From a virus: DNA of 27,000 nt. Shown here one piece after another: positions 5,031 to 27,000 of this stretch; within the stretch, counting starts at the first letter, position 1; every line of letters begins with the position of its first letter. The translations under genes were made by a program, and so were the position numbers. The notes below the pieces were generated by a model. The model made no database searches and had not been told where the DNA came from. It worked only from the letters and a program-made list of their open reading frames with translations. The stretch lies in the IMG/VR virus record IMGVR_UViG_3300021956_000067, positions 1-27,000 of that record; one strand, given 5' to 3'.

Positions 5031-5570
5031 GTGCTGTATGACATAATCTATGCTGATCCACCTTGGCATTATGCTGCACGGAAAACAGGAACCAAGTTTG
5101 GTGGTGGGGTCACTGACAAGTATCCCACAATGACCATACCTGAAATCTGTGCTGTGCCTGTGCCAGCCGCGGCGGATTCAGTGTTGCTGATGTGGACCAC
5201 AATGCCCTATCTTGACCGCTGCATTGAACAGGTCATACCAGCCTGGGGATTCCGCTACATTACCTGTGCGTTTACCTGGGTCAAGACCAATCCACAGTCG
5301 GGCACCATATTCAAGGGTGTGGGCAACTATACCAAATCCAATGCTGAACTGTGCCTGTTGGCCAAACGTGGTGCAGGACTGCCAAGAGTGCATCGTGATG
5401 TGGCACAGGTTGTGCTGGAACCACGCAGAGAACACAGTCGCAAGCCTGATCGTGTGCGAGATGACATTGTGCGATTGTTTGGCGACAGACCCAGACTGGA
5501 AATGTTTGCCAGGACCACAGCACCTGGCTGGGCAGTGTGGGGCAACCAAACGGACAAGTTTGATGCTTGA
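5031..5570 (+). CDS. MT-A70 family adenine N6 methyltransferase
   Basis: Encodes 179 residues of an MT-A70-type DNA methyltransferase, which transfers a methyl group from S-adenosylmethionine to N6 of adenine. Seen: the catalytic DPPW at residues 9-12; NYTKSNAELCLLAKRG around residues 102-117, the SAM-side family motif; and the C-terminal block REHSRKPDRVRDDI followed by RLEMFART and GWAVWGNQ, a classic ending of phage members. The start is GTG, supported by GGAG 6 nt upstream; no ATG gives a complete N-terminus, since DPPW comes so early. Such enzymes can protect phage DNA against host restriction. No matching endonuclease is nearby, so it is a solitary enzyme here. Its end overlaps the large terminase start by 8 bases. 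Confidence 0.93.
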   Translation: MLYDIIYADPPWHYAARKTGTKFGGGVTDKYPTMTIPEICAVPVPAAADSVLLMWTTMPYLDRCIEQVIPAWGFRYITCAFTWVKTNPQSGTIFKGVGNYTKSNAELCLLAKRGAGLPRVHRDVAQVVLEPRREHSRKPDRVRDDIVRLFGDRPRLEMFARTTAPGWAVWGNQTDKFDA

Positions 5571-7461: not shown

Positions 7462-8202
7462 ATGTTGGATATCAAACAAATACCAGTTGACCAGATCAAT
7501 CAAAACCGCAAGATCAACGCCAACTTTGTAAGAATGAAAAACCAAATGGACGTCAAAATGGCGTCTTATTTGCGTTACCTGGCCACAAAAAATGCTGTCA
7601 ATCGTGCGAGTGATTATCATTATCTTTGTCTTGCTGTCACTGATTCAACTGCTCCGGTTAACGGCATTGATTATATCCATCCATCAGTGAAACCTGTGGT
7701 GGACTATGCCACTGCTGTGATTACCAAAGGCCTGGCTCCCAATGGCGAAATCAACTTTGAGTTTGTGGCTGATGGTGCTGATGATGAATACGCAGCACGC
7801 CAGGCTACAGAAATGGTCAGCCATGTTGTTAATGAAATGAACGATCCGCATTTTGTGCTGGAGCGTTGGGTCATGGATGCCAACATGCACAAAAACGGCA
7901 TGATGATGATCAAGCCTGTGCGTGAACCCATCACACGCTATGTTGAAACACAAGGCACCATGGATCAACTGCGTGCTTTTGAGCAGCAGGCCATTGACGG
8001 TGGACTCACACCTGTGCGTCAAAGCCGCAAGCGTGTATCAGTGGATCTGGAGCGTGTGGCTGCTGAAATGTCTGGTGGCATTCAGGGCCAGTTGGACGAG
8101 CATGTTCAAAGCCTAATCCAAGACCGTTTGGAATCAGCCAATCAAGAACAGGACATGGAAGACCTGGCAGCTGAAGGTGCTGAACACGCAGCAGCCATTT
8201 AA
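7462..8202 (+). CDS. Portal protein, N-terminal part (ends at an in-frame TAA)
   Basis: Encodes 246 residues, the N-terminal wing region of a P22-like podovirus portal: YIHPSVKPVVDYATAVITKG near residues 75-95, then ATEMVSHVVNEMN and the LERWVMDANMHKNGMMMIKP segment near 135-155, typical of the family. The portal is the dodecameric ring at one capsid vertex through which DNA is packed and ejected. The frame stops at TAA 8200-8202, but the same frame continues open five codons later into the rest of the portal. AAGGAAAA precedes the ATG. Either the gene is broken by one nonsense change, or two polypeptides are made. The product alone would lack clip and stem regions. Confidence 0.85.
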   Translation: MLDIKQIPVDQINQNRKINANFVRMKNQMDVKMASYLRYLATKNAVNRASDYHYLCLAVTDSTAPVNGIDYIHPSVKPVVDYATAVITKGLAPNGEINFEFVADGADDEYAARQATEMVSHVVNEMNDPHFVLERWVMDANMHKNGMMMIKPVREPITRYVETQGTMDQLRAFEQQAIDGGLTPVRQSRKRVSVDLERVAAEMSGGIQGQLDEHVQSLIQDRLESANQEQDMEDLAAEGAEHAAAI

Positions 8203-8217
8203 GGCGACCAAGAAGAC

Positions 8218-9738
8218 ATGCTGGCAGATGCCATTGCTCGCAACTCAATCTATGTGGCCAAATACAAGCTCACAGGCTACAACATCAAGATCAAATTCCA
8301 CCCCATTGCTCAACACTACTGGATCTGTGACCCCACTGTGCCAGAAATGCGTGACCAACCATTCTGTGGTTACTATGATCCCATGACAATCCAGGAAGCC
8401 ACAGAGCTGTATCCTGGTATCAACCTTGCTGAGTTTGAGCGTTTTGCTGAATACAACATGAATGGTGCGTATCAAGCAGGCTCAGTGCTCAACAACCTTG
8501 CTATCCACGCAAGAGATTCAGTGCCTGTCATGGGTATTCCTGTGTCAAGTGCTGCATCAGCGGACCCAGACAGTCGTCAGGTTTCAATTGTTACGGTATG
8601 GAACAAGTATGACATTGACGGGGACGGCGAGCTGGAACTGATTGAACTGATATATTCGGGCTCCTACATCATATCTGCCCGTGAAGTTGAATTCATCCCA
8701 GTGGCCAACATGTGTCCCAAGCCACTTCCTGGCAACTTCTACGGCATGAGCATTGCTGAAAGTGTGATTCCCATGCAGGAATACAACACTTCCGCAGCTC
8801 GTGCTGAAATCCAGTTGGGCTTGCTGACTGCCACTCCACGCATTGGTGTCAAACCAGACCGTGTGGATTTTGAAATGATGCAGGACGGCGAAGCTGCCAT
8901 CTTTATTCTTGATTCAAAGTTTGATCCTGCCAAAGACATCTACCCAATGCCAGCTCCTGCTGGCAACCTCCAGTTCTTGGAAGTGGCAATGACTCGTATC
9001 CAACAGGATACCATGGCCATGGTAGGCATGACCACGCCATCAGATGTGTTTAATCCAGAAGTTATGGCACCCGGCAACTCAGGGGTGAAACTTCAAATGG
9101 CTCTTACTCCCAATCAGATCATTCAAGACAACACTGTGCGTAACAGTGCAGATGGATTGAAGGAAGCACTATGGTTGGTCTGGCGAACCCTAATTCAATA
9201 CGGTGATGACTATGGTGTCAAACGCCTGGCACAAAAGAGTCACCCAGATGGCAAGCCAGAGTTCTTGGATTTCAAGGCCTGGGATGACATGAACTTCTGT
9301 GATCGCAAGCACATTCAGATTGAATTGGCCTTGGGCATGCAAAGTCAAGAGAATGCTTTGGGTCGTCTACAGATCATTCAGCAGGCACAGACACAGTTAT
9401 ACCAAACCACACAAGGCATGGTTGCGTCAGGCACGCTCACCCCTGAAATCTACGCCAAGGTCAAGAAGCCTTTTGCTGACACCTTGTATGTGTTGGGCGT
9501 AAAAGACTGCGATACCTACTTGCCGTCAGATGAAGAAGTCATGAAGATGATTGAAGCAGGCAAACAAGCTGCTGCCAACAAACAACCCAGCCCAACAGAA
9601 CAGAAAGATCTGTCTGTGGCCAAACTCAATGAAGCCAAGACACAGCAGATTGGTGCTGAACTACAGGGTCAAGACCCAGATACGCAACTTAACTACATGG
9701 CCATAGCAATGGGCAAGGCACAAGACTACGGTCACTAA
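8218..9738 (+). CDS. Portal protein, C-terminal part
   Basis: Encodes 506 residues in the same frame as the preceding part. Family features: KYDIDGDGELELIELIYSG near residues 123-141, then PLPGNFYGMSIAESVIPMQE, LLTATPRIGV and a long helical C-terminus with NAADGLKEAL-like segments and Gln-rich ends, all matching P22-like portals. ATG 8218 is the first Met after the TAA; the only ribosome-binding-like sequence is an AAGG 13 bases upstream, too far to be good. If TAA were a sense codon, the joined protein would be 758 residues, a normal size for this portal type. The split is therefore more likely a lesion or sequencing/population variant than two evolved genes, though reinitiation is possible. 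Confidence 0.85.
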   Translation: MLADAIARNSIYVAKYKLTGYNIKIKFHPIAQHYWICDPTVPEMRDQPFCGYYDPMTIQEATELYPGINLAEFERFAEYNMNGAYQAGSVLNNLAIHARDSVPVMGIPVSSAASADPDSRQVSIVTVWNKYDIDGDGELELIELIYSGSYIISAREVEFIPVANMCPKPLPGNFYGMSIAESVIPMQEYNTSAARAEIQLGLLTATPRIGVKPDRVDFEMMQDGEAAIFILDSKFDPAKDIYPMPAPAGNLQFLEVAMTRIQQDTMAMVGMTTPSDVFNPEVMAPGNSGVKLQMALTPNQIIQDNTVRNSADGLKEALWLVWRTLIQYGDDYGVKRLAQKSHPDGKPEFLDFKAWDDMNFCDRKHIQIELALGMQSQENALGRLQIIQQAQTQLYQTTQGMVASGTLTPEIYAKVKKPFADTLYVLGVKDCDTYLPSDEEVMKMIEAGKQAAANKQPSPTEQKDLSVAKLNEAKTQQIGAELQGQDPDTQLNYMAIAMGKAQDYGH

Positions 9739-12648: not shown

Positions 12649-13242
12649 ATGAGCCACGACATAAACCAACCTGAATACCTTGATGACAAGGATCCCGAAA
12701 AGAATCACGACTATTGGAGACAAGATCATGGTGGCATGGTCACCAATCACAATGGTATTGCTGACAAGTTGCTGAAAAACGATGAACTGTATCGTTCAAT
12801 GAAGGGCGATTGGTCAAGAACCAGCTGGAATGCCAGCCAAAACATTCGCACCACAACTGGTCGCGAAGATGGCAAGTTCTATATCCGTCGTGAGCAAATG
12901 AACGCTGAAGCAGTGGCTCGTCGCTGTCAAGAATACCGCAAGGCTGCTGAACAGGGATTTCCGGATCCCCTGGCACCCATTGGCGATGATGGTAAGCTGA
13001 CCTACAAATGGATGGACTTGCCCAATGTTGTGAGCATACGCATCAGTGATCAATACTTTGGTGGCATGCCCTGGGCAGCAATCAAACATGATCGCACACT
13101 CAAGGCTCAGTTCTACCGAGTGGTAGAAAAGGAATACAATCAATACGTTTGCTACCCAGGTGGCAAGTTGCCCATTCCCATTGATGTTCCGTATCCAACC
13201 AAGCAAGGGCAACAAAAGTTCTTTAAGGGACACACAATATGA
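12649..13242 (+). CDS. Hypothetical 197-aa head-tail region protein
   Basis: Encodes 197 residues, polar, rich in Asp, Asn, Lys, Arg and Tyr, with an N-terminal acidic, disordered-looking segment, a helical middle (MNAEAVARRCQEYRKAAEQG) and a C-terminus KLPIPIDVPYPTKQGQQKFF. No family is recognised. The start is ATG 12649, immediately after the TAAATA box; an upstream TTG lies inside the terminator-promoter region and is rejected. The stop overlaps the next ATG as ATGA, coupling it to the adaptor candidate. Position between capsid and adaptor suggests a head-completion or assembly role (inference). Confidence 0.7.
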   Translation: MSHDINQPEYLDDKDPEKNHDYWRQDHGGMVTNHNGIADKLLKNDELYRSMKGDWSRTSWNASQNIRTTTGREDGKFYIRREQMNAEAVARRCQEYRKAAEQGFPDPLAPIGDDGKLTYKWMDLPNVVSIRISDQYFGGMPWAAIKHDRTLKAQFYRVVEKEYNQYVCYPGGKLPIPIDVPYPTKQGQQKFFKGHTI

Positions 13243-13985
13243 GTTTCCAAATCCCCTCAGCAGATGACTTAGTTGATTTCATCAAAGACTTCACTGGCAG
13301 CACCAATGATGCTGAAATCAAAAAATGTATCTTCTTGGCTGAAATGTCAATGCGTAACGTGGAGCTGCCTGCACTGCGTTGCGATCCCTATGCTGTTGAA
13401 AACATTGGCGTGGCTGATCAGTATGGCAAGATACCAATCCCGCCAGACATGAACAAGCCCATCTTGTTCTTCAAACAAGGTCAGCCAGGAGGCAATCCCA
13501 GCAGTCAAACCGGACCATGGATTGTGTATGACCGTATTGGTGACAGAGACATCATCACACAGGGCATGATTGCTCAGTTGTATTTGCAACCTGTGAACGT
13601 GCCTGCTGTGATCCGTGGAAAGTTTTCAGAAGTGGGCGACAAGTATCAGTTCTTGCCGTATATTGGTGAGGGCGATCTCATCAACATGTATTACTACAAG
13701 GCCTGGCCTTTGTTGTTCTCACCTGTGGAAGGTGGTTCGCCAGGCGAAACAGTGCAATCAAATGCTGTGCTGGCCACTTGGCCTGAAGGCTATGTGTATG
13801 GCACACTACGTGAATACTACATCAAGCGTCACAATGACCAAGACGCAGCAACATACGCAGCCAAGTTTGACAATGCTTGGAACACAGTAGAGGATCAAAA
13901 CAATCTGGGCAAGTGGTCAGGTGGTCACACACGCCTAACTTCCGTTTGGCAACCAAGACAATATCGTCAATATAACATCAAGTAA
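13239..13985 (+). CDS. Putative head-tail adaptor (gp4-like)
   Basis: Encodes 248 residues with a helical N-terminal part (DDLVDFIKDFTGSTNDAEIKK, then FLAEMSMRNVELPALR) followed by a beta-rich middle with IPIPPDMNKPILFF and a late GYVYGTLREYYIKRHNDQDAATYAAKFDNAWN, a layout often seen in podovirus adaptor/tail-tubular A proteins, which attach below the portal and begin the tail. The ATGA overlap couples it to the upstream gene. It lies in the usual place between capsid and tail fibre genes. The call rests on layout and position rather than on a diagnostic motif. Confidence 0.55.
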   Translation: MSFQIPSADDLVDFIKDFTGSTNDAEIKKCIFLAEMSMRNVELPALRCDPYAVENIGVADQYGKIPIPPDMNKPILFFKQGQPGGNPSSQTGPWIVYDRIGDRDIITQGMIAQLYLQPVNVPAVIRGKFSEVGDKYQFLPYIGEGDLINMYYYKAWPLLFSPVEGGSPGETVQSNAVLATWPEGYVYGTLREYYIKRHNDQDAATYAAKFDNAWNTVEDQNNLGKWSGGHTRLTSVWQPRQYRQYNIK

Positions 13986-13996
13986 GGACTGGCACA

Positions 13997-16879
13997 ATGT
14001 CAACATCAAGTTTATACACTTTTGGTAGCACAGCCAATGTCAGTGCCAACAACTTTACTACGCTTTACAATGCCGGCGGTCAGAATATCACGCCCAGCAC
14101 AGGATATGGCAACGCCAATGTGGAAAGCTTTTTGGCTGAGGGCACAGATGGTGGCAACACCATTGGTAATATCAAAGCCACAGGCAACATTTCTACCACA
14201 GGTAATGTGCTGGCCAATGCAGGTGTTTACGCTGCCAACTACTACTATGCCAACGGTGCTCCGCTAAACACACAAGGCAACTATTCAAATGCCAATGTGG
14301 CAGCATACTTGCCCACATACACAGGCAACTTGGCTGGTGGCAATCTTGCTATCACACATGACGCTGTGGTTTCTGGCAACATTACTTCTGGTATCAACAT
14401 CACTTCAGGTGCTGACATTCAAGCTACAGGCAATATCCGCACACTGGGCCCGTCTGGCAACATCACAGGCGTAAACTATGTCAGTGCCAGCTACTATTTG
14501 GGCGATGGCGGCTTGCTGTCAAACATTGGTGGCAGCTATGGCAACGCCAATGTCAGTGCATACTTGGCTGCTGGTATCTCCAGCAACATTGTCACAACTG
14601 GTAATATCACAGGCAACTACATTTTTGGTAATGGCAGCCAACTAACTGGCTTGCCAGCAACTTATTCAAATGCCAATGTGGTATCACTGCTGGCCAACTT
14701 TGGCAGCAATGTGATTTCAACCACTGGCAACATTGACGCTGGCAACATTTCAGCGACAGGCAACATCACTGTGGCTGGTAGTTTGAATTCAGATGACATC
14801 ACATCAGCTGGTGTTACAGTTTATGGTGATCAGATCATCACAGGCAACTTGACTGTTCAAGGCACAACCACAACAATCAATTCAAACACCATTGTTACCA
14901 ATGACAAAACCATTACAGTGGCCAATAACCAATCAACAGCAGCCAATGTCAACGGTGCTGGCTTGGAAGCAGGCAATCCTGCTGTGGCTACCTTGCTTTA
15001 CAATGCTCTAACCAACAGTTGGCAAAGCAATGTGGGCGTTACGCCTGTGGCCAACCTTACACAAGAACTGGGCAACAACCAAAACCGTTGGAGCACAGTG
15101 TATGCAGGTGCCATTGACGCTTCTGGCAATGTGTCAGCAGCAGGCAATGTGGCTGGTGAATATGTTATAGCCAACACAGCACTGTGGTTTGGTAGTGACA
15201 CACCAAGTGAAGCCATTACTGCTGATAACTTGACCATGAACTTTGTGACTAATGGTCAAACAAGATTGAGTATCACCTCTGGTGGCGGCAACCTGCAAGG
15301 TAACTTGATCCTAAACAACTCAATTGGCAACGGTATTCTCAACAGTTATGGTGTTGTGGCCAATGGCAACATCTTAGCATCTGGCTTTGTAAGTGCTGCA
15401 GGCAATGTCACAGGTGCCAATGTCAACACTGATTATGTAAACTTTGGATCTGGTTATGGTAACCTCACTGGTGGAGAACTGTATCTTGGCAACACCCTGG
15501 GCAGCTATCAGAATCAGGTTCGCTTGGTGGCCAATCAGAACATTGGTTATTTGCAAGTTGGCACCACAGGCAGCAATGGTTTATTCAGATTCAGCAAATG
15601 GTTGAACGCCAACACTGCTCTGGAAGTTGATACTGCCAACAATCGTGTGGGTATCAACAAAAATGCTCCTACAGTGGCATTGGATGTGGCTGGCGAGATA
15701 TCAGCCACAGGCAATATCACAGGCAACTATATCCTGGGCAATGGTTCACAGTTGACTGGGCTACCTGAGATTTATGGCAATGCCAATGTGGCCACATTCT
15801 TGGCAGCATTTGGTTCAAATACTATTGTGACCACAGGCAATATCACAGCGGGCAACTTCATTGGGTCTGGTGCTTATTTGAGCAGTTTGCCAGCAGGCAA
15901 TGTAACAGGAACTGTAAGCAGTGCCAATGTGGCCAGCCTGGTCAATGTTAGCAATGCCAACTCAACGTCTGGTAGTTCATATTACATGGCATTTGCCAGT
16001 GGTCCAGGCAACAATCAAGTTCAGATAGATGATTTTGGTCAAGGATTTACTTACACACCGAGCTCTGGAACCATTTACACCACACAAGGTTTATTCAGTG
16101 GCAATGTCACAGCGTCTGGCAATGTGATTGCTGGCAATGTAACCACAACTGGATTGATCACAGCCGCAGGTAACATTATAACCACTGGCAACATCTCAGG
16201 AAACTATTACATTGGTAATGGTTCGTTGTTGACAGGTATTGTTGCTGTTTCCAGTTACGGCAATGCCAACGTTGTGGCCAACCTGGCTGCATTGGGATCA
16301 AACCCAATCAGTTCAACTGGTAACATCACAACCACTGCCAATATTTCTGGCAACTACTTCCTGGGCAATGGATCGCAGTTGACTGGATTGCCAGCCACTT
16401 ACGGCAACGCCAACGTAGCAGCCAATTTGGCAGCATTTGGTTCTAATCCAATCAGTTCTACAGGCAATATCACAACCACTGCCAACGTATCAGCCAACTA
16501 CTATCTTGGTAATGGTTCGCAGTTGACAGGTATCTCAGCCAGTTTGCCAGCCAACATCACAGGCAATGTGTTTACATCTGTAGTCTACAGTTATGGTAAT
16601 GCCACAGGCACAATAACACCTGATATCAGTTTAGGTTCTATCCAGACCATGACCTTGACAGGCAACATCACACTCAACAGTTTGGCCAACGTCAACACAG
16701 GACAGACAGCAACATTTGTGATTTCGCAAGATGCCACAGGCAACAGACTGCTCACAAGCACCTGGAAGTTTGCGTCCAACGTTCGCACATTGTCAACAGC
16801 AGCCAATGCCATTGATATGATTTCTGTTAGCTACATTGGCAATACATATTACGCATCACTGATCAGAGGATTCCTATAA
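13997..16879 (+). CDS. Tail fibre with repeated TGN/LGNGSQLTG modules
   Basis: Encodes 960 residues. Most is built of repeated modules with the pattern TGNITGNYILGNGSQLTGLP followed by TYGNANVA and LAAFGSN; clear copies begin near residues 205, 573, 730, 778 and 826. Residues about 285-385 contain TTINSNTIVTNDKTITVANN and NRWSTVYAGAI, a segment shared with fibres of T4-like and aquatic phages. The last 90 residues (SQDATGNRLLTSTWKF, then IDMISVSYIGNTYYASLI) form a conserved C-terminal domain also present in the second fibre here. Such proteins are trimeric beta fibres that reach the host receptor. AAGGA precedes the ATG; its TAA overlaps the ATG of the next gene (TAATG). Confidence 0.88.
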   Translation: MSTSSLYTFGSTANVSANNFTTLYNAGGQNITPSTGYGNANVESFLAEGTDGGNTIGNIKATGNISTTGNVLANAGVYAANYYYANGAPLNTQGNYSNANVAAYLPTYTGNLAGGNLAITHDAVVSGNITSGINITSGADIQATGNIRTLGPSGNITGVNYVSASYYLGDGGLLSNIGGSYGNANVSAYLAAGISSNIVTTGNITGNYIFGNGSQLTGLPATYSNANVVSLLANFGSNVISTTGNIDAGNISATGNITVAGSLNSDDITSAGVTVYGDQIITGNLTVQGTTTTINSNTIVTNDKTITVANNQSTAANVNGAGLEAGNPAVATLLYNALTNSWQSNVGVTPVANLTQELGNNQNRWSTVYAGAIDASGNVSAAGNVAGEYVIANTALWFGSDTPSEAITADNLTMNFVTNGQTRLSITSGGGNLQGNLILNNSIGNGILNSYGVVANGNILASGFVSAAGNVTGANVNTDYVNFGSGYGNLTGGELYLGNTLGSYQNQVRLVANQNIGYLQVGTTGSNGLFRFSKWLNANTALEVDTANNRVGINKNAPTVALDVAGEISATGNITGNYILGNGSQLTGLPEIYGNANVATFLAAFGSNTIVTTGNITAGNFIGSGAYLSSLPAGNVTGTVSSANVASLVNVSNANSTSGSSYYMAFASGPGNNQVQIDDFGQGFTYTPSSGTIYTTQGLFSGNVTASGNVIAGNVTTTGLITAAGNIITTGNISGNYYIGNGSLLTGIVAVSSYGNANVVANLAALGSNPISSTGNITTTANISGNYFLGNGSQLTGLPATYGNANVAANLAAFGSNPISSTGNITTTANVSANYYLGNGSQLTGISASLPANITGNVFTSVVYSYGNATGTITPDISLGSIQTMTLTGNITLNSLANVNTGQTATFVISQDATGNRLLTSTWKFASNVRTLSTAANAIDMISVSYIGNTYYASLIRGFL
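16256..16543 (+). repeat. Tandem 144-bp repeat inside the first fibre gene (2 copies)
   Basis: Copy 1 (16256-16399) and copy 2 (16400-16543) align over their length, each encoding 48 residues that include NANV, SNPISSTGNITTTAN and LGNGSQLTG. They differ mostly at third codon positions. Diverged copies occur elsewhere in both fibre genes. Confidence 0.8.
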
Positions 16880-17664
16880 TGCCAACACTGCCCACAGCAC
16901 AAGGTTTTTGGAGCAACACCAATGAACGCAGGGAAGGAACTCCCAGCACCAATTCAAGCTTGACCTTTACAATCCCTGCGGGTGTGGCCAACATAAACAC
17001 CACAATCAAACAGTTTGGCACAGGCTCAATGTTTGGCAACACAGGTGGTGGCTATATTCAGACAGTGACTTCAAATCAATCACTGAGTGTGGGCACAGGA
17101 GACTTTACTGTGGAAGGATGGGTTTATGTTCCCACTGCCAGATTGACCACAGGTGGCACTGCTGATATTATTGTCAATAATGCCAGTCAAGGTCTTGGTA
17201 TACGCATGGGTCAGACTTTCAACAACGCAGGTGGTATCAATGCTCTCAGCGTTTTTGCTCGTAATGGCACCGACGGTCCCTATGTCACTGTGTCCTATCC
17301 AAGAGATGCCTGGACTCATTTTGTGGTTCAACGCAATGCCAACGCTGCCACACAATACTCTTTTTGGATCAATGGCGTCAAACAGACCATAGCAGGTGGT
17401 GGTAACCTAAACTCACAAAACTTTGCCAACGTAGGCACCAATGCACTGACCATAGGCAACTATAACTCTGGTGGCACTGGAGCTGAAAACCTGCGTGGTA
17501 TCTATGTGGACGAACTCACTGTGGCCAAAGGCATAGCGAGATATGATCCCATTGGTAACATTGTTGTTCCTGTGTATAGTTTCAACGTGGATGAATACAC
17601 AGGCATTTTGATGCATATGGATGGCACATCAGGTTCCACAACTTTTGTCAACGCAACGAGCTAA
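16879..17664 (+). CDS. LamG/concanavalin-like adhesin partner of the first fibre
   Basis: Encodes 261 residues with features of a LamG-type jelly-roll domain: a strand DFTVEGWVYV (about 75-84), a DAWTHFVVQRN strand, YSFWINGVKQ, then a closing LRGIYVDELTVAKGIARYD (about 210-230). These domains often bind carbohydrates, so it likely contacts surface polysaccharide. The start overlaps the fibre stop as TAATG, so it is translated with the first fibre. No signal peptide or catalytic triad is seen. Fold assignment is from the strand pattern, not a search. Confidence 0.8.
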   Translation: MPTLPTAQGFWSNTNERREGTPSTNSSLTFTIPAGVANINTTIKQFGTGSMFGNTGGGYIQTVTSNQSLSVGTGDFTVEGWVYVPTARLTTGGTADIIVNNASQGLGIRMGQTFNNAGGINALSVFARNGTDGPYVTVSYPRDAWTHFVVQRNANAATQYSFWINGVKQTIAGGGNLNSQNFANVGTNALTIGNYNSGGTGAENLRGIYVDELTVAKGIARYDPIGNIVVPVYSFNVDEYTGILMHMDGTSGSTTFVNATS

Positions 17665-17666
17665 TC

Positions 17667-17936
17667 ATGTATAGACTTCAACTACGCTACGATCTATTTC
17701 CAGAAGAACAACACAGTTATGGTGTTCGCGAAATCACAGAAGATGTTTTTGTGAGCCTGGCCACTGGTGTGCCTGTGCCTGCTGACATTGAACACGAACA
17801 AATCTATCGCAACAGACCAGGCGACGCCAGTTATGTTGCTGTGTGGGATCCAGAAAACAACTGCTGGGTAAACAATCTTTCAGAAGAGCAAGCTCGTGCT
17901 GCTTACAAGCCCTGGTGGCGTCAGGATTACCCATGA
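17667..17936 (+). CDS. Hypothetical 89-aa protein in the fibre cassette
   Basis: Encodes 89 residues, with an N-terminal part YRLQLRYDLFPEEQHS, a middle strand SYVAVWDPENNCWVNNL and a Trp-rich tail YKPWWRQDYP. No family is recognised. The ATG comes two bases after the LamG gene's stop, with no clear ribosome binding site, so coupling is likely. The TGA overlaps the next ATG (ATGA). Small proteins between fibre genes are often fibre-assembly chaperones, but this is inference from place alone. Confidence 0.65.
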   Translation: MYRLQLRYDLFPEEQHSYGVREITEDVFVSLATGVPVPADIEHEQIYRNRPGDASYVAVWDPENNCWVNNLSEEQARAAYKPWWRQDYP

Positions 17937-18085
17937 GTGGTGGTGTTGAGATTGGTTCTGGCATTGAGATTGGTTCTGGCATCACCATTGGTGATGTTGT
18001 GGCCTACAATGTAGAATTCATCACTGAAGATGGTGTTTACTATTTCATCACAGAAGATGGCCTAACCCTAATTGAGGAACAATAA
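17933..18085 (+). CDS. 50-aa protein with internal repeats
   Basis: Encodes 50 residues made largely of two short repeats: EIGSGIEIGSGITIG near the start and FITEDGVYYFITEDG near the end. ATG 17933 is chosen because it overlaps the previous TGA as ATGA; its TAA overlaps the second fibre's ATG as TAATG. The beta-type repeats suggest an extended fibre-like element. The function is unknown. Confidence 0.65.
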   Translation: MSGGVEIGSGIEIGSGITIGDVVAYNVEFITEDGVYYFITEDGLTLIEEQ

Positions 18086-19914
18086 TGACAACGGGAAATA
18101 TCAAATTCAGTCAACTACCCAATCTACCAGCAGCCAATATCACTGCTGCTACGATTGCTCCTGTGGTTGAAAACAACACCAACTACAAGGTCACTTTGGC
18201 CAACTTGACCAGTTACATCAACAATGGTGGCAACATCACAGCAACCACAATAAGTGCGTCAGGCAACATTACAGGTGATTACTTTATTGGTGATGGTTCA
18301 CAATTAACCAACTTGCCAACCTCACCATTAGCAGGCACTGCTACTGGTGATATTGACATGAATGCTTACGCATTGAGATCTGGTTTGATCACTTCTACAT
18401 CTACGTCGTCGCCATATAATTTGGATCTTTTTGTCACAACCAACTACGCAGGTTATGGTGGTGGTGCTGGTGGTGCTGTGTATTTGGGAACTGAGAATGG
18501 CCCTACTGCTGAAGCACAAGCCAATATTTCTGTTGGTAGCAGCTGCAGAATCAAGGCCAATGTTATTGGAGTGTATCTTGGAACCACAACATCTGTCTCT
18601 GGCGATGTTTACGCCACTGGCGTTTATCATGGTGATGGCAGCGGATTGAGCAATGTGTCTTCAACACTGCCCAGCACATTCACTGTGACAGGTAACATTG
18701 TGGGTGGCAACCTAAGTGCCACAGGTAATGTCACAGGCAATTATATTCTGGGCAATGGTAGCCAACTCACCGGCCTGCCATCTACATATTCAAACGCACA
18801 AGTTGCCACATATCTGGCGTCTGGCAATGTGACCAGCAACATTATCACCACAGGCAACATCACAGGTGCTGTGCATATTGGTTCTGGTGCTGCGTTAACC
18901 AATTTGCCAGCAGCCAACATTGTGGGCACAGTGGCCAATGCAACCTATGCTACCACTGCTGGCACAGCAACATCGGCTACCACTGCTGCCAATGCAACCT
19001 ATGCTACCACAGCTGGCACAGCAACTTCAGCTACCACAGCTACCACAGCCACTTCAGCTACTACAGCTACTACCGCAGTCACAGTGACTTCAGCCAGTCA
19101 GCCTGCTATTACCAGTGTGGGCACGCTGACCAGTTTGAGTGTGAGTGGCAACGTCACAGCCAACTACTTTGTTGGTAATGGATCAGCATTGACTGGTATA
19201 ACAGCATCTGCTGGCAATAGCATTGTGAGTGGCAATAGTTTTGCCAACGTGGCTGTGGCCAATGGCAAAGTTTGGATCAACGGTGGCAATACAATTGGTT
19301 ACTATAATCTGGCCAACGTAACAGGTTTGCAAAGCAACACAATGATTATCACCAATGGTGCCAGCAATGCCTATGTCACATTGGCAGGCTCTGGTGATAT
19401 TGTATTAAATCCAGCCCAAAGTGGTGTTTTAAGCACTGGAAACGTGTATCTGTCAACTCTGCGAATCCAAAGCAGATCATTGACCAATGCTGCTGATGGC
19501 ACATTCAGCGGCACTGTTGATACCAATGCGTTAACTGTAAATGCCAATGCTGTAGTATATGGCACTTTGTCTGTGAGTGGCAAAACCACGCTTGGTCCTT
19601 ATGTCCAAACTGTGGTCACTGTTGGTAATACCAGCACATCTATAACACCCAATGCCAGCACAGCTCCTGTGTTGAAGTTCACGGCAAACAACAACTTTAC
19701 ACTGAATGTGCCATCAAATATGACTGCGGGTCAAAGTCTGACCATGATTTTCACACAAGATGCCACAGGCAACAGAGTGATGACTGCCAACACCGCATAC
19801 AAGTTTGCCTATGGTGTGAACACCCTAAGCACCACAGCCAGTTCAACTGACGTGCTCACAGTGTTCTATGATGGCACCAACTATCTAACCAACCTAATCA
19901 AAGGATACGCATAA
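18085..19914 (+). CDS. Second tail fibre (paralogous C-terminus)
   Basis: Encodes 609 residues. It contains two modules of the TGNYILGNGSQLTGLP type (near residues 65 and 225), an Ala/Thr-rich stretch (about 285-335) with NATYATTAGTATSATTA twice and then short ATS/ATT repeats, a SASQPAITSVGTLTSLSVSGN segment widely found in phage fibres, and a last domain TFTQDATGNRVMTANTAYKFA-like that is clearly homologous to the end of the first fibre. It starts by a TAATG overlap and ends by a TAATG overlap with the glycine-rich gene. Likely a second receptor-binding fibre or an arm of the same apparatus. Confidence 0.87.
   Translation: MTTGNIKFSQLPNLPAANITAATIAPVVENNTNYKVTLANLTSYINNGGNITATTISASGNITGDYFIGDGSQLTNLPTSPLAGTATGDIDMNAYALRSGLITSTSTSSPYNLDLFVTTNYAGYGGGAGGAVYLGTENGPTAEAQANISVGSSCRIKANVIGVYLGTTTSVSGDVYATGVYHGDGSGLSNVSSTLPSTFTVTGNIVGGNLSATGNVTGNYILGNGSQLTGLPSTYSNAQVATYLASGNVTSNIITTGNITGAVHIGSGAALTNLPAANIVGTVANATYATTAGTATSATTAANATYATTAGTATSATTATTATSATTATTAVTVTSASQPAITSVGTLTSLSVSGNVTANYFVGNGSALTGITASAGNSIVSGNSFANVAVANGKVWINGGNTIGYYNLANVTGLQSNTMIITNGASNAYVTLAGSGDIVLNPAQSGVLSTGNVYLSTLRIQSRSLTNAADGTFSGTVDTNALTVNANAVVYGTLSVSGKTTLGPYVQTVVTVGNTSTSITPNASTAPVLKFTANNNFTLNVPSNMTAGQSLTMIFTQDATGNRVMTANTAYKFAYGVNTLSTTASSTDVLTVFYDGTNYLTNLIKGYA
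18934..19041 (+). repeat. 54-bp tandem repeat (2 copies) plus short repeats in the second fibre
   Basis: Two 54-bp copies (18934-18987, 18988-19041) encode NATYATTAGTATSATTAA-type sequence. They are followed by shorter GCTACC/ACAGCC-based repeats to about 19080. Such repeats can change copy number by slippage or recombination and so alter fibre length. Confidence 0.75.
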
Positions 19915-20762
19915 TGGTCTTACCATTTGGCATGGATGCTCTTTTTGCCATTCCGCAAGCCAGCGGTGGCACACAAAGCACTATCACAGTGTCTGGACAG
20001 CCATACCGTTTGCACACTTTTTATGGCAGTGGTTCTTTTGTGCTCAAAAGTGCAGCCACTGTGGAATACTTTATTGTAGGAGGTGGCGGCGGCGGTGGTG
20101 GCTCAGGTGGTGGCGGCGGCGGTGGCGGCCAAATTGTCAGCGGCACTTACAGTGCAGTCGCTGGCACTTATACTGTGACTGTTGGAGCTGGCGGAGCACA
20201 ATCAACAGCTGGGTTGGCCAGCAATGGCGGCAACTCCAGTGTGTTTAGCCAAACAGCCACAGGTGGTGGTGGTGGTGCTGGATATGGTATTAGTGTTCCT
20301 GTCAACGGTGCCACTGGTGCCAACGGTGGTGGCGGTTCTGGACAAGGCGGTGTTGGAGGTTCAGCAACTTCTGGCAATCCTGGCGGTAACGGAACCACAA
20401 TAGGATCAGGCAATGGTAATTTTGGTGGTGGCGGTGGTGGTTATGGCAGTGCTGGACAAAATGCCACCAACAACGTCAAGGCTGGCAATGGCGGATCTGG
20501 TATTACTGATAGTTTTTCTGGCGTCAGCACATATTATTCAGCAGGTGGTGGCGGTGGAGCACAAAGCACCTTGAACACTACATTTGGAACTGGTGGTTCA
20601 GGTATTGGCGGCAATGGTGGCTATAACAATGTGGCCGCCACAGCTGGTTCTGCTAACACAGGAGCTGGTGGTGGCGGCGGTGGATCAGGCGTTACTGGAC
20701 AATCAGGTGCACAAGGCGGCAGTGGCATTGTAATGATCAGATATGCGTTAACTATAGTTTAA
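19914..20762 (+). CDS. Glycine-rich adhesin-like protein
   Basis: Encodes 282 residues. After a short N-terminal part (QASGGTQSTITVSGQPYRLH, then VEYFIVGGGG) come repeated poly-glycine blocks separated by Ser/Thr/Asn/Ala-rich linkers, to a short end GIVMIRYALTIV. Glycine-rich domains of this type occur in phage tail proteins; in phage S16 the gp38 adhesin packs such blocks as polyglycine II helices at the fibre tip. The poly-Gly here is not collagen, as Gly is not every third residue. The TAATG overlap with the second fibre suggests co-production as its tip. Whether it truly folds like gp38 is inference. Confidence 0.75.
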   Translation: MVLPFGMDALFAIPQASGGTQSTITVSGQPYRLHTFYGSGSFVLKSAATVEYFIVGGGGGGGGSGGGGGGGGQIVSGTYSAVAGTYTVTVGAGGAQSTAGLASNGGNSSVFSQTATGGGGGAGYGISVPVNGATGANGGGGSGQGGVGGSATSGNPGGNGTTIGSGNGNFGGGGGGYGSAGQNATNNVKAGNGGSGITDSFSGVSTYYSAGGGGGAQSTLNTTFGTGGSGIGGNGGYNNVAATAGSANTGAGGGGGGSGVTGQSGAQGGSGIVMIRYALTIV

Positions 20763-20771
20763 GGAACAACA

Positions 20772-22673
20772 ATGGCTCAAATCAAAAGTCAATTAGACGA
20801 AGCAAGAATCCCATTTGCTAAGATGACATTCTCTCCAGATGTGCCATCAACAGCCTTGGGACCCAACGAATACAACGCAGGCGTCAATGTGGAAACAGAT
20901 GTGCGTGGTATTCGCAGTCAAGCAGGTGATGAAGAAATCCTAACTGCTGTTCCTGGCACACCAACTTATGTCAGTTCCAACTATCGTCGCAATGGCGAGT
21001 TTTGGTTTATTGTTGCTACCACAGAAGGCAAGTGGTGGGCAACCAATGGCACAGATGTGGATTGGTATGATATCACTCCTGGTGGCGGCACATTCACAGG
21101 TTATGCTCAAAACACCAACATCACAGAAGCCTGGAACGGCACTGTGCCGTTTTTCAATGACAGCCTAAATCCTCCCATGTTCCTGCCAGACACAGCAGGT
21201 GCTGTGTTGATTCCGTATTCAAACACATTGCCTGCCAGCATTTCCAACATTGTTTCACTTGCTCCAACATATCCTGACCGTTATCGTTTGACATTCAAAG
21301 CTGCTGTGACAACCGCTTACACAGCCGGTGAACAAATTGTGATCAGTGACGTCAACAACTACATCAACGGTGTTTACACTGTGGCAGGTGGCACTACCAC
21401 CTATGTGGATTATATCGCAGTGCCAGGTGCCAGTTACCCAGGTGGTGGTGTAGGATCCGTGGCTCCAAAATATGCCTGGAACTACAACCCCAACTGGAAG
21501 AGTTATTATGCTGGTTGGATGCGTATCTACAACACCCCCAACGTGGGTTCAATCCTGGTGGCTGGTAATCTAACTGCCACTCAACTGGACGACACAGACA
21601 TAAACTATCCTGTCACAGTGCAGTGGAGTCAAAACTTTGGTCTCAATGAAGCTCCGCTGACCTGGCAACCCACAGTGACCAACGTGGCCAACCAGTTGGA
21701 AGTGCCCTTGCGTGGCACATGTGTGGATGCGTTCCCATCAAATGGTCAACTGTTCTTGTGCTCATATTGGGACACTGTGGTGTTTAGTCCTTTGAACTAT
21801 ACCACAACATCAACACCTATCCTGGGTGTGCGATTGTTTAACCAAGGACGTGGCATGCTCACAAGCAATGCCTGGGCCAACACAGACAAACTGGTATACG
21901 GTGTAGACAGCAGAGACATTTGGGTGTTTGATGGCAATGACTTTCAGGGCGTTGGCAATCAGCGTGTGAAGAACTGGTTCTATGATCAACTGGACCCTGC
22001 TCATGTTCAGCAGATGTTCATGGAAGTAAACACACAACGCAACCAAGTTGAAATCTATTACACAGACAAAAACTATGATCCCATCACCAATCCTGGTGGA
22101 TCACCCAACAAGATGATCTCATATCGCTATGATTTGGATTGCTGGAACGCTCCAAGAGATGTATCAGAAGCTACCTTTGCTTGTGAATCACCTGTGTGGT
22201 CCTATGATGATCCTGATTGGTCCAGCAACGAAGGATCACGCACAGTGGTCTATGCTCGCGGTGTCACTGATGTTCCATTGGTTCAGAAAGACCAAGGCTA
22301 CAGTTGGATTGATGGCGGTGCCATTGATTCAGTGTTCCGCAGAGACAATATCAAAATGCTGCCCAACTATTCCGGCAAAGTCATGGTTCATCGCATACTG
22401 CCAGAAGTTGTAAACATGGGCAACAGTGAGCTGCCCATCTATCCATCAACAGGCAACATTTCAGTTACCATTGAAGGTGCTGATTCTGTGGGTTCAGAAC
22501 CTGTCAGCACAGTGGCTGTTGAAATGCCCATTGACACTGCCAATCCTTGGGCACAGATCAATCAAAACGCTTTCCGTGTAAACTCCATTGAACTCAGTAA
22601 CTCATCCAATGTAGACATTTGGATGTGTAGTGCCACCACATGGCAATATACACAAGTTGAGGATGACCGCTGA
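20772..22673 (+). CDS. Putative tail nozzle/stabilisation protein (gp10/gp12-like)
   Basis: Encodes 633 residues, beta-rich, with many aromatic-containing strands, beginning with an N-terminal KSQLDEARIPFAKMTFSPDV and a PNEYNAGVNVETDVRGIRSQAG motif common at the start of podovirus nozzle-like proteins, followed by repeated blades (for example GKWWATNGTDVDWYDITPGG; WVFDGNDFQGVG). These features suggest a beta-propeller tail protein closing the channel, as P22 gp10 or T7 gp12 do. AAGGA precedes the ATG. The TGA overlaps the next ATG (TGATG). The family call is tentative but size and position fit. Confidence 0.6.
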   Translation: MAQIKSQLDEARIPFAKMTFSPDVPSTALGPNEYNAGVNVETDVRGIRSQAGDEEILTAVPGTPTYVSSNYRRNGEFWFIVATTEGKWWATNGTDVDWYDITPGGGTFTGYAQNTNITEAWNGTVPFFNDSLNPPMFLPDTAGAVLIPYSNTLPASISNIVSLAPTYPDRYRLTFKAAVTTAYTAGEQIVISDVNNYINGVYTVAGGTTTYVDYIAVPGASYPGGGVGSVAPKYAWNYNPNWKSYYAGWMRIYNTPNVGSILVAGNLTATQLDDTDINYPVTVQWSQNFGLNEAPLTWQPTVTNVANQLEVPLRGTCVDAFPSNGQLFLCSYWDTVVFSPLNYTTTSTPILGVRLFNQGRGMLTSNAWANTDKLVYGVDSRDIWVFDGNDFQGVGNQRVKNWFYDQLDPAHVQQMFMEVNTQRNQVEIYYTDKNYDPITNPGGSPNKMISYRYDLDCWNAPRDVSEATFACESPVWSYDDPDWSSNEGSRTVVYARGVTDVPLVQKDQGYSWIDGGAIDSVFRRDNIKMLPNYSGKVMVHRILPEVVNMGNSELPIYPSTGNISVTIEGADSVGSEPVSTVAVEMPIDTANPWAQINQNAFRVNSIELSNSSNVDIWMCSATTWQYTQVEDDR

Positions 22674-24154: not shown

Positions 24155-27000
24155 ATGGCCAAGAATGCCCTGGTAAAAAAATTAGAACAAAAAGGTCGCG
24201 GCCCTGATACGATTCTGGCACACATCACCCCTGAAGAAGCACAGCTACTTGAGGCTCACGGTGGTTCAGGAACTATAAATCCAGAGACCGGTTTACCAGA
24301 GTTCTTGCCTGATTGGATCACTGGCCTGTGGGACAAGTTCACAGGCTTTGTGCGTCAATATGCACCTGTGATCATGCCTGCTGTGGCAATCTTTGCCCCT
24401 ACCTTGATTCCAAGCATTGGAACTTGGTTGGGTGCTACAACTGCCACAGGAGCAGCGGTCTTGGGATCAGCGGCTCTTTCTGCTGGTGTGACTTTGGCCG
24501 CAGGCGGCAGTTTGAAAGACGTGTTGACATCTGCTGCCCTGGCAGGTGCCACAACTTACTTGACTCCTGTGTTGGGACAAAAGATTGCCGGTGCTGTGGG
24601 CGTGGCCAGTCCTGTAGCAGCACAGTTGATTGGCACAGCAGCCACTTCAGGCGGACTTGCTGCCCTGCGTGGTGGCACTGTGAAACAAGTTATTGCTGCC
24701 GCAGCTACAGGTGCTGCCAGTAGCTACTTGGCAGGTGTGGCCAGAGACGCATTTGCCGGTATCAACAATGGCATGGCATCTGGCAAGATCTCTGCCAACG
24801 TTACCCAAAAAGGTGCCCAGGATTCTGTGTATGTTGCTGCTGACGCTGCCAACTTGAAAGCTGCTGGACTTAATGAATCACAAGTTGTGCAAGCACTGAA
24901 AGATTCTGGTGTCAATGGTATTTCTGCTGAGATAGCTGCCAAAGGCACATTCCAAGGCAGCACTGCTGCTGATGTTGCTGCCAACGTGGCAGCCAGCATG
25001 CCATCCGGTAGTTATTCAGGTGATCCTGCTGCCAAAAGCATCACAGCTGGCAACAACTTGGATTTGCTGCAACGCATTGAAGATTCCCAAACTATTGGAC
25101 AAGATGCCGCACAACTCAAAGCACAAGGTTTGAGTCAAGCCCAGATCAAAGAAAACTTGATGGCCACAGGTGTCAGCGAAAGTGCTGCTAACTTGGCAGC
25201 TCAACGTGCTGTTGGTGGCGGCAACGCTGCTTCAATCGCCAGCGAAATACAAAACTATTACAAAACCACACCAATCTACAGCAATACTGAAAACGTAGTC
25301 AGTCGTGATCTTGGTCAAGCAATGACTGCTGAACAGCAGGATGCCTGGCGTGCTCAACCTTACAAAGCAGAAGTTGCGGCCGGTAAACTGACCAATAGCG
25401 AAGCTGCTATTCTCAGTCAAAATGGTTATACACCTGCGGATGTGACCAAACTTACAGGCCTGGGCTACACAGGTTCAGATCTTGTAGATCTGGCATCAAC
25501 TGGTGTCACAGCCAGCACACTCACAGGTTTGGGTGATACCAAGTTTGCTGAAACCAATATCAATGACATGTTGAAGGCTGGTGCTTCAATCAATGATATC
25601 AGTTATGCCAATAGATTGGTTGGTGCTGGCACTATATCAGCAGACAACGCACAAAAACTGTTGATGAAAGATCTTACTGGCACACAAATTTACAACGTTG
25701 CCAGCAAAGGAGATGCTGTTGTTAACAAAATTATCAACAGCAATTTGAACAGTGCTTCTATTGATAAGTTGATGAATTATGGCTATGATTTGAGCAAGGC
25801 AGCCGATGCTGCGGCCAAAGGTGTTGACATCAACGGTATTATTTCCAAATCCAATGGTTCAACCAGTTGGTTAAGCGAAGTCAACACAGCTATTAACAAT
25901 GCTACCGCTGTTGCCCCTGCTCCTGCGACACCAGGTGCTCCTGTGACTACTGGACCTGTTATGCCAACTGAAGTTGCTCCGCATTACACAGCAGGAACCA
26001 CAGCAGCTGACATTGATTTTGCTATTGCTGACGCACAGCAACTCAAAGCACAAGGTCTAAATGGCACACAGATATCCAGTGTTCTCAAAGCATCTGGCAT
26101 GAATACTACCATGGCCACTTACCTTGGCACAGAGGTAGCACGCAATACTTCAATAGCATACTTAAAATCTGACCTAAACTCGTTTACCAATCACGGCAGC
26201 ACACCAGTGTATGGCAAGGCCCCTGAATCCACAACACCCGCACCAGCACCCACACCTGCTCCAAGCGGTCCAACCATTCCTGTCAAAATGCCTGATGGCA
26301 CAGTGGGCACATATGATCCTGCCACAGGTGATGTTCACGACGCCGGCGGCACCAAAATCGTGAGTGGCACAGAACCCACACCTGGCACTGGCACCAACGT
26401 AGCTGGACCCTACAGAGTGGATGTCAGTGGATTGATTGCTGATGACAACATGAGTCCTACTGTGCGTGCTCAACACTTAAAAGGTGCTATTCCTGATGGC
26501 ACTGTATTAGCCAACGCTGACACCCCAGGTGCCTACATTGATCAAGCATCAAATGCTTGGGTTGTCAAATCTGGACCTACAGAGATTACCAAACCAATCA
26601 CACCAGTTGATATCACACCAGGTTCAAGAGATGTTGTTCCTGTAGATGTTACTCCAGTGGCACCTGCACCTGTTGCACCCACAGAACCACCTCCTACAAC
26701 CACACCCAGTGGTCCAGGCAATGTAGTTGCTCCTCCGGGCACAGAAGTTGTGTATGATGAATTGGGCAACACCTATTTCTTCAATCACAACACAGGTGAA
26801 ATCCTGGACAACAGCGGCAAGGTCATTTACACACCGCCTGTGGAAACACCTGCTCCGCCACAGGCTCCTGCTCCTACGCCAGCACCCACACCTGCTCCAC
26901 AGACACCTGTGCCTCCACCTGGACAACAGTTGGTCAGTGATGAAACTGGCAAATCATATTTCTTTGATCCTGAAACTGGTGTGATCACAGACACAGAAGG
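24155..27000 (+). CDS. Large modular virion protein, 3' end beyond the window
   Basis: The frame is open from ATG 24155 to the window edge, more than 940 codons. AGAGGA precedes the start. Visible parts: residues about 68-198, an Ala/Gly-rich hydrophobic region (PVIMPAVAIFAPTLIPSIG onward) that could insert into or cross a membrane; then three copies of a helical module LKAxGLxxxQ(I/V)xxxLxxxGV near residues 230, 317 and 630; then Pro/Ala/Thr-rich linkers separating short modules of the type GxxYxxxxTGxxxDxxG near residues 715, 870 and 930. Place after nozzle and tail genes and the hydrophobic region suit an ejection (internal) protein. A tape-measure-like or structural role is possible. No lysozyme motif is seen in the part available. 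Confidence 0.8.
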   Translation, partial: MAKNALVKKLEQKGRGPDTILAHITPEEAQLLEAHGGSGTINPETGLPEFLPDWITGLWDKFTGFVRQYAPVIMPAVAIFAPTLIPSIGTWLGATTATGAAVLGSAALSAGVTLAAGGSLKDVLTSAALAGATTYLTPVLGQKIAGAVGVASPVAAQLIGTAATSGGLAALRGGTVKQVIAAAATGAASSYLAGVARDAFAGINNGMASGKISANVTQKGAQDSVYVAADAANLKAAGLNESQVVQALKDSGVNGISAEIAAKGTFQGSTAADVAANVAASMPSGSYSGDPAAKSITAGNNLDLLQRIEDSQTIGQDAAQLKAQGLSQAQIKENLMATGVSESAANLAAQRAVGGGNAASIASEIQNYYKTTPIYSNTENVVSRDLGQAMTAEQQDAWRAQPYKAEVAAGKLTNSEAAILSQNGYTPADVTKLTGLGYTGSDLVDLASTGVTASTLTGLGDTKFAETNINDMLKAGASINDISYANRLVGAGTISADNAQKLLMKDLTGTQIYNVASKGDAVVNKIINSNLNSASIDKLMNYGYDLSKAADAAAKGVDINGIISKSNGSTSWLSEVNTAINNATAVAPAPATPGAPVTTGPVMPTEVAPHYTAGTTAADIDFAIADAQQLKAQGLNGTQISSVLKASGMNTTMATYLGTEVARNTSIAYLKSDLNSFTNHGSTPVYGKAPESTTPAPAPTPAPSGPTIPVKMPDGTVGTYDPATGDVHDAGGTKIVSGTEPTPGTGTNVAGPYRVDVSGLIADDNMSPTVRAQHLKGAIPDGTVLANADTPGAYIDQASNAWVVKSGPTEITKPITPVDITPGSRDVVPVDVTPVAPAPVAPTEPPPTTTPSGPGNVVAPPGTEVVYDELGNTYFFNHNTGEILDNSGKVIYTPPVETPAPPQAPAPTPAPTPAPQTPVPPPGQQLVSDETGKSYFFDPETGVITDTE

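Follow-up and report, generated by a model that had tools for sequence, protein, structure and literature searches.

How does a bacteriophage that carries two tail fibre genes in one locus equip each fibre with a different tip, and what joins the tip to its fibre? This question is raised by the window, a stretch of 27,000 nucleotides (positions 1 to 27,000 of the IMG/VR virus record IMGVR_UViG_3300021956_000067), in which two fibre genes are each followed directly by an adhesin-like open reading frame (ORF). The virus is a freshwater-type, short-tailed (podovirus-like) phage, and in its 27-kb record PHROG and Pfam assign a terminase, a portal, a major capsid protein (MCP) and an adaptor to a head and tail block of podovirus-like type; the fibre stretch comes next, and then a phrog_3287 gene. 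An earlier note on this DNA had described two parallel fibre-adhesin pairs and had suggested for them a duplication of a fibre base with exchange of tips. It is considered likely that the stretch is a receptor-binding island bounded by the adaptor and nozzle genes and built from plug-and-socket modules, in which a trimeric fibre would end in a C-terminal socket (the dock) and an exchangeable adhesin would be held there by an N-terminal plug.

A shared domain at the fibre ends and the reading frames behind it

The four ORFs of the two pairs are real, and both fibre/adhesin junctions are of the TAATG form with a 1-nt overlap, each leading to a different adhesin-like ORF; in this respect the description of two pairs is supported. 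The shared final domain of about 90 residues, which had been proposed as well, was confirmed: the last ~98 residues of fibres 1 and 2 are 42% identical, with 40 invariant columns of 100, and their global alignment score is 204 against 31.4 +/- 8.0 in 500 shuffles (about 21.6 standard deviations for 100 residues). Repeats of one 73-nt DNA family occur in both shafts, in six copies in fibre 1 and in two in fibre 2, so the relatedness of the fibres exceeds the last 90 residues.

The AlphaFold2 (AF2) model of the dock, based on 86 sequences, predicts a confident beta-rich domain (predicted local distance difference test, pLDDT, 94.2; predicted template modelling score 0.82), which we read as a beta-sandwich; docks L018 and L019 were excluded from the structure alignment. 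The best match in the PDB is the capsid spike of Pa223, residues 187-294 (9ny6_C; Foldseek 6e-6), with Z 9.1, a root-mean-square deviation of 4.3 and 100 aligned residues at an identity of 14% or less. The closest solved chain by sequence profile is the tail fibre 9cuy_g (residues 700-783 of 793, E 0.0016). To our knowledge no adhesin partner has been known for the Pa223 spike or for the 9cuy_g fibre. S16 gp37 was not among the VIA-align rows for the dock, an absence that excludes nothing. The PHROG family phrog_4549, "tail fiber protein", is matched by 46 of the 88 docks in set A3 (88 of 95 docks; the corresponding adhesin set A4 holds the complete ones, 89 of 95). For the dock family both a profile match and a position at the fibre C-terminus were found. 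Besides the first subtype of dock, A, there is a homologous second one, V, with an end like YLTTVSPEFV (profile-profile E 6e-15).

The occurrence of the module was studied in viral contigs scanned with the dock, the nozzle and the capsid protein, giving 217 sequences together with the window, its partial copy and three phage records; the dock scan yielded 497 candidate stretches, 80 of which were kept. The first-type dock stands at the extreme C-terminus of 100 of the 102 closed ORFs that were left after removal of redundancy. From 158 dock ORFs of both subtypes 3 open ones, 1 internal one and 34 duplicates were removed, leaving 120 docks, and an ORF starts no more than 15 nt after the dock in 104 of them, with a 1-nt overlap in 80 of those 104. 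The module was also found in two isolates, phage DSL-LC06 and Caulobacter phage S2B, and two further contigs (L099, L020) have both an A dock and a V dock, each paired with a plug that matches it. The module is real and general. A direct proof through a dock-adhesin fusion was sought and given up: the domain lay far from the end (tail of 120) in L014 only, and this was a partial match.

Junctions at -1 or -4 were counted in 82 of 121 dock fibres, 39 of 48 nozzle genes, 11 of 63 portal genes and none of the MCP (0/78) or adaptor (0/73) genes, and a -1 overlap occurs at 2143 of 28874 arbitrary stops (7.4%). In the window TAATG is found also between the small ORF and fibre 2 (18085) and behind the nozzle gene (22673); the overlap recurs at other junctions, and alone it is therefore unspecific for fibre/adhesin pairs.

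The bodies of the downstream ORFs are varied. The partner of fibre 2, called glycine-rich in the earlier note, is indeed a member of Pfam Gly_rich_2 (PF21722; 84.7 bits against a cut-off of 24.3, E 1.3e-23), the only family reached in an all-Pfam scan to E 0.1; a phmmer search against the PDB, made with S16 gp38 in view, gave antibody fragments only, among the matches listed (60 of 80), an outcome that speaks neither for nor against a kinship with gp38. The label LamG for the partner of fibre 1 fared less evenly: its own Pfam score stays below the threshold, and the label is supported by 10 of 16 aligned relatives, which match Laminin_G_3, and by its AF2 model (pLDDT 76.2, residues 1-11 below 50), which resembles jelly-roll domains (Foldseek E 3e-6, TM 0.48). 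At the top of the fold rows stands the lectin-like part of clostridial neurotoxin binding domains, and pentraxin is among the others; at 9-15% identity such matches of a model mean a common fold and nothing more. Among the 89 complete downstream ORFs Pfam recognised Laminin_G_3 in 21, Gly_rich_2 in 19, GLEYA in 3, PA14 in 3, kelch in 1 and DUF7483 in 1, besides others.

Covariation of plug and dock

The evidence that a fibre end goes with the ORF downstream of it comes from covariation among relatives, by which this part of the earlier note, with its exchange of tips, is borne out. The set comprised 95 pairs, that is 100 without L207, L183 and L094 (too short) and without L065 and L187 (the partner is a nozzle homologue). 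Distances between docks are correlated with distances between residues 1-18 of the adhesins (rank r 0.25, z 6.9). Partialling out the distance of the fibre N-termini leaves this correlation unchanged, and its size is the same (r 0.25) among non-homologous bodies (4073 of 4465 pairs). Its maximum lies at adhesin residues 8-16 (z 9.8) and it falls to about zero at residues 20-36.

The plug also predicts the dock subtype. With homologous bodies excluded, the nearest plug called 18 of 18 V docks and 72 of 77 A docks correctly; residues 19-36, used as a control, reached 3 of 18 and 60 of 77. In the lineage of the window itself, where both subtypes are present, the calls were right for V 18/18 and A 23/25. 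All 13 independent new pairs obtained by a search with the V dock only were called V by their plugs (when the labels were shuffled 2000 times, the mean was 2.4 and the maximum 12). A scan of genome contigs gave one locus from 85 pattern matches, which did not suffice for a further test set.

Exchange can be followed in single cases as well. The LamG body of L147 is 65-74% identical to those of L066, L149 and L070, from which it differs both in its plug and in the subtype of its dock, and the glycine-rich body of the window is 53-54% identical to those of L102 and L117, which bear the other plug. Plugs are poor in acidic residues (0.38 per 18 vs 1.11 in residues 19-36); an aromatic residue is present in 90 of 95 plugs, and aromatics are not clearly enriched (2.28 vs 2.07 per 18 downstream). 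The disorder predicted for residues 1-11 in the model of adhesin 1 taken alone is what would be expected of a plug without its socket.

Fibre anchors, proposed docking and competing explanations

By convention the N-terminus of a fibre is its virion end; the shared C-terminal part is thus tip-proximal, which inverts the "base" of the earlier note. The N-termini of the two fibres belong to two different conserved types. Among 38 non-identical adaptor-to-nozzle intervals, the SLY/GLY-type start of fibre 1 follows the adaptor gene in 34 and the IKFSQLPNL-type start of fibre 2 is present in 12. The patterns for the N-termini are our own, the IKFSQLP pattern replacing a slot-2 profile search that found one locus, and intervals were de-duplicated for identical flanks only, so that a few similar contigs (L084/L172) are counted twice. 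Slot-2 fibres end in a dock in 6 cases and in another tip (WKRVALS type) in 6. The island measures 2.9 to 10.7 kb over the 38 intervals and holds no dock in 6 of them, one in 27 and two in 5. By our reading, two complete fibre-adhesin pairs are found in 4 of the 38 (the window, L010, L099 and L020), and L010 has the same order as the window: fibre, LamG-like ORF, 82 aa, 54 aa, fibre, glycine-rich ORF.

The proposed mechanism is as follows. Each fibre would presumably be a trimeric shaft, anchored in the virion near the adaptor or nozzle by an N-terminus of its own, and its far end would present the beta-sandwich socket of about 95 residues. The next ORF, the start of which overlaps the fibre stop, would supply the adhesin, made beside the fibre and docking by a plug of its first ~18 residues that fits the socket of its own fibre, and the adhesin body would be any of many lectin-like folds, open to exchange. 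Two modules on two different anchors would give two fibre types on one particle. It is most likely that one particle displays a jelly-roll/LamG-like tip on one fibre type and a glycine-rich tip on the other, and it is plausible that two surface structures are bound by these putative tip adhesins. With more reserve, we lean towards a wider statement: matched subtypes of socket and plug may form a docking standard that evolves apart from the fibre anchor and from the adhesin body, and phages of several lineages would be able to mount any one of many lectin-like folds at each fibre position, with a change of plug whenever an adhesin is transferred to a different type of socket.

Several observations weigh against this explanation. 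No partner ORF lies within 15 nt of 16 of the 120 docks, the dock fibres of L065 and L187 run directly into the nozzle gene, and 2 of 15 new V docks have no partner; since partnerless docks exist, the dock may act alone. The dock of the first pair in the window is 72% identical to that of L010, yet the plugs differ, and the L010 plug is one of the two miscalls within the lineage of the window. Within subtype A residues 19-36 are also correlated with the dock (r 0.19, homologous bodies included), and plug distance is weakly correlated with fibre N-terminus distance (r 0.13). The rows of the covariation set are related by descent, and the permutation does not correct for kinship. A plug motif written post hoc as a regular expression matched 15 of the 18 V plugs and none of the 77 A plugs but only 3 of the 13 new V pairs; as written it was over-fitted, and nearest-neighbour calls took its place.

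The genes for Tfa and for T4 gp38 usually stand immediately behind a fibre gene and overlap it, and the downstream ORFs might be fibre-specific folding chaperones of this kind, which depart before virion maturation. As described in the accessible part of the report, the Pam3 gp24/gp25 system resembles the present pairs in its glycine-rich distal domain and in a fibre with a separately encoded partner, and this partner, gp25, is a Tfa-like chaperone; it differs in that the glycine-rich part lies within the fibre itself (PMC9608196). For the present island chaperones are quite improbable: no chaperone family, Tfa included, is among the 13 Pfam families matched by the 89 downstream ORFs, where Laminin_G_3, Gly_rich_2, PA14/GLEYA and kelch appear instead, and unrelated body folds stand on one dock type, bodies being kept while plugs change. 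The C-terminal domain could also be the receptor-binding or trimerisation tip itself, and the ORFs behind it separate virion proteins that go along with it through gene order and translational coupling. Such a reading gains from the partnerless docks, from the nozzle genes, which share the TAATG habit, and from the resemblance of the dock fold to C-terminal and other domains of phage spikes; it is nevertheless unlikely, as the covariation lies mainly in the first ~18 residues of the adhesin and persists under the restriction to non-homologous bodies, the partialling out of N-termini and the restriction to one lineage.

The proposal of the earlier note, a duplicated fibre base with exchanged tips and perhaps alternating particles, accounts for the shared domain, the shaft repeats and the presence of two pairs. 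As an explanation of the whole it is highly improbable, given N-termini of two conserved types, a shared part that is C-terminal and a second pair that is uncommon. The phase-variable or alternating arrangement was rejected, no inverted repeat of at least 20 nt being present in 13900-20900; both modules run in the same direction in one tight gene string, which makes their co-expression more likely.

The plug-and-socket explanation has a known counterpart in the T-even phages, where the complex of the gp37 trimer and the tip adhesin gp38 was solved for Salmonella phage S16 (PDB 6F45; PMC6851490). According to the part of that report available, gp38 is an adhesin that, like the partners in the window, comes from a separate downstream gene and, like one of them, is of the glycine-rich type; it caps the C-terminus of the trimeric fibre by its N-terminal part, a helical attachment domain with three tryptophans, in one copy per trimer (PMC6851490). 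The place directly downstream of the fibre is shared by the partners of the 104 docks described above. Unlike S16 gp38, the ORFs described here would attach by a peptide of only about 18 residues, the socket appears to form a separate domain family and the predicted bodies are of many folds. The likeness to S16 gp37/gp38 would thus be one of working principle, not of membership. The glycine-rich tail-fibre adhesins of Hafunaviridae are similar in that the adhesin gene lies in a hypervariable region and tracks host range; they differ in belonging to archaeal myoviruses, and a plug/dock pairing is not described in the accessible part of the source (PMC8651126). What is known is the principle of a fibre with a tip adhesin; what is new is one socket family for many adhesin folds with matched plug subtypes. 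A description of the plug/dock family was not found in the literature searched, a partial coverage that does not prove absence.

If the plug alone sets the fit to the socket, receptor specificity could be read off, and predicted, from two short stretches that lie side by side, and a change of host range in environmental phages would be a gene exchange at a defined joint. A simple way to find tip adhesins in viral contigs without annotation follows: the dock domain is located and the next ORF is taken. The testable prediction is that the 18 residues are necessary and sufficient for docking.

Island layout, variants and neighbouring genes

The features of the island are listed in Table 1, in which the nozzle label is our own assignment from gene order.

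Table 1. Features of the island in the window, and leader-body fusions in relatives, with the basis of each putative assignment
Feature	Position	Strand	Basis or remark
Head-tail adaptor gene, left island border	13239..13985	+	Pfam SU10_adaptor 27.8 bits (cut-off 27); phrog_2941
Fibre 1 (slot 1), 960 aa	13997..16879	+	SLY-type N-terminus, repetitive shaft; shaft matches PF06598
Putative dock (socket) domain of fibre 1, ~98 residues + stop	16583..16879	+	alignment, AF2, relatives
Putative adhesin 1, 261 aa, jelly-roll/LamG-like, TAATG-coupled to fibre 1	16879..17664	+	
Putative plug of adhesin 1, first 18 residues	16879..16932	+	covariation; residues 1-11 disordered in monomer model
89-aa ORF, no family	17667..17936	+	similar small ORFs after LamG adhesin in several relatives
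50-aa ORF, ITIGGG...FITEDG type (slot 3), no family	17933..18085	+	ATGA overlap upstream, TAATG overlap with fibre 2
Fibre 2 (slot 2), 609 aa	18085..19914	+	IKFSQLPNL-type N-terminus, shaft
Putative dock (socket) domain of fibre 2, ~98 residues + stop	19618..19914	+	alignment
Putative adhesin 2, 282 aa, glycine-rich, TAATG-coupled to fibre 2	19914..20762	+	Gly_rich_2; phrog_2295 E 3.5e-41
Putative plug of adhesin 2, first 18 residues	19914..19967	+	covariation
Nozzle-type tail gene, right island border	20772..22673	+	phrog_3287 "virion structural protein"; relatives in 39 viral contigs
Leader-body fusions	L070 10353-11240; L149 10065-10901; L171 14075-15052; L157 19880-20809; L020 9802-10677		

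Upstream of slot 2 lies an ORF of ~48-50 aa that has ITIGGGITIG-type repeats and is rich in TED at its end (the 50-aa ORF of slot 3 in the window); in five relatives a similar leader continues without a break into a body of the glycine-rich or repeat type. The fused leaders look as if they were a third anchor for adhesins.

Two contigs, L011 (2404-3945) and L012 (3216-5144), are 99.7% identical from the fibre shaft onward and have different fibre N-termini. In L012 a slot-1 N-terminus is joined to a shaft, dock and glycine-rich adhesin that match slot 2 of L011 at this identity. The joint may be a deletion through the shaft repeats or an assembly chimera; as its origin was not decided, L012 was kept out of the evidence. 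An ORF of 126-127 aa follows the V-type adhesin of L099 (6347-6727), with similar ORFs in L138, L157 and L020; the one of L099 matches PF23140, "Podophage GP4 fiber I protein gp80" (E 6.6e-29).

Outside the island, the portal gene of the window (7462-9738) contains an in-frame stop (8200-8202) that divides it in two; the halves both match phrog_1216 and stand in one frame in 72 ORFs of the fetched loci, and the stop may be a sequencing error, a nonsense change or a case of recoding. A gene for an MT-A70 type adenine methyltransferase (5031-5570) lies just upstream of the terminase frame and overlaps it. At the far end an open ORF of 948 aa (24155-26998) has, near its end, a match to the WW domain (PF00397, 27.8 bits), which is unusual in a phage virion block.

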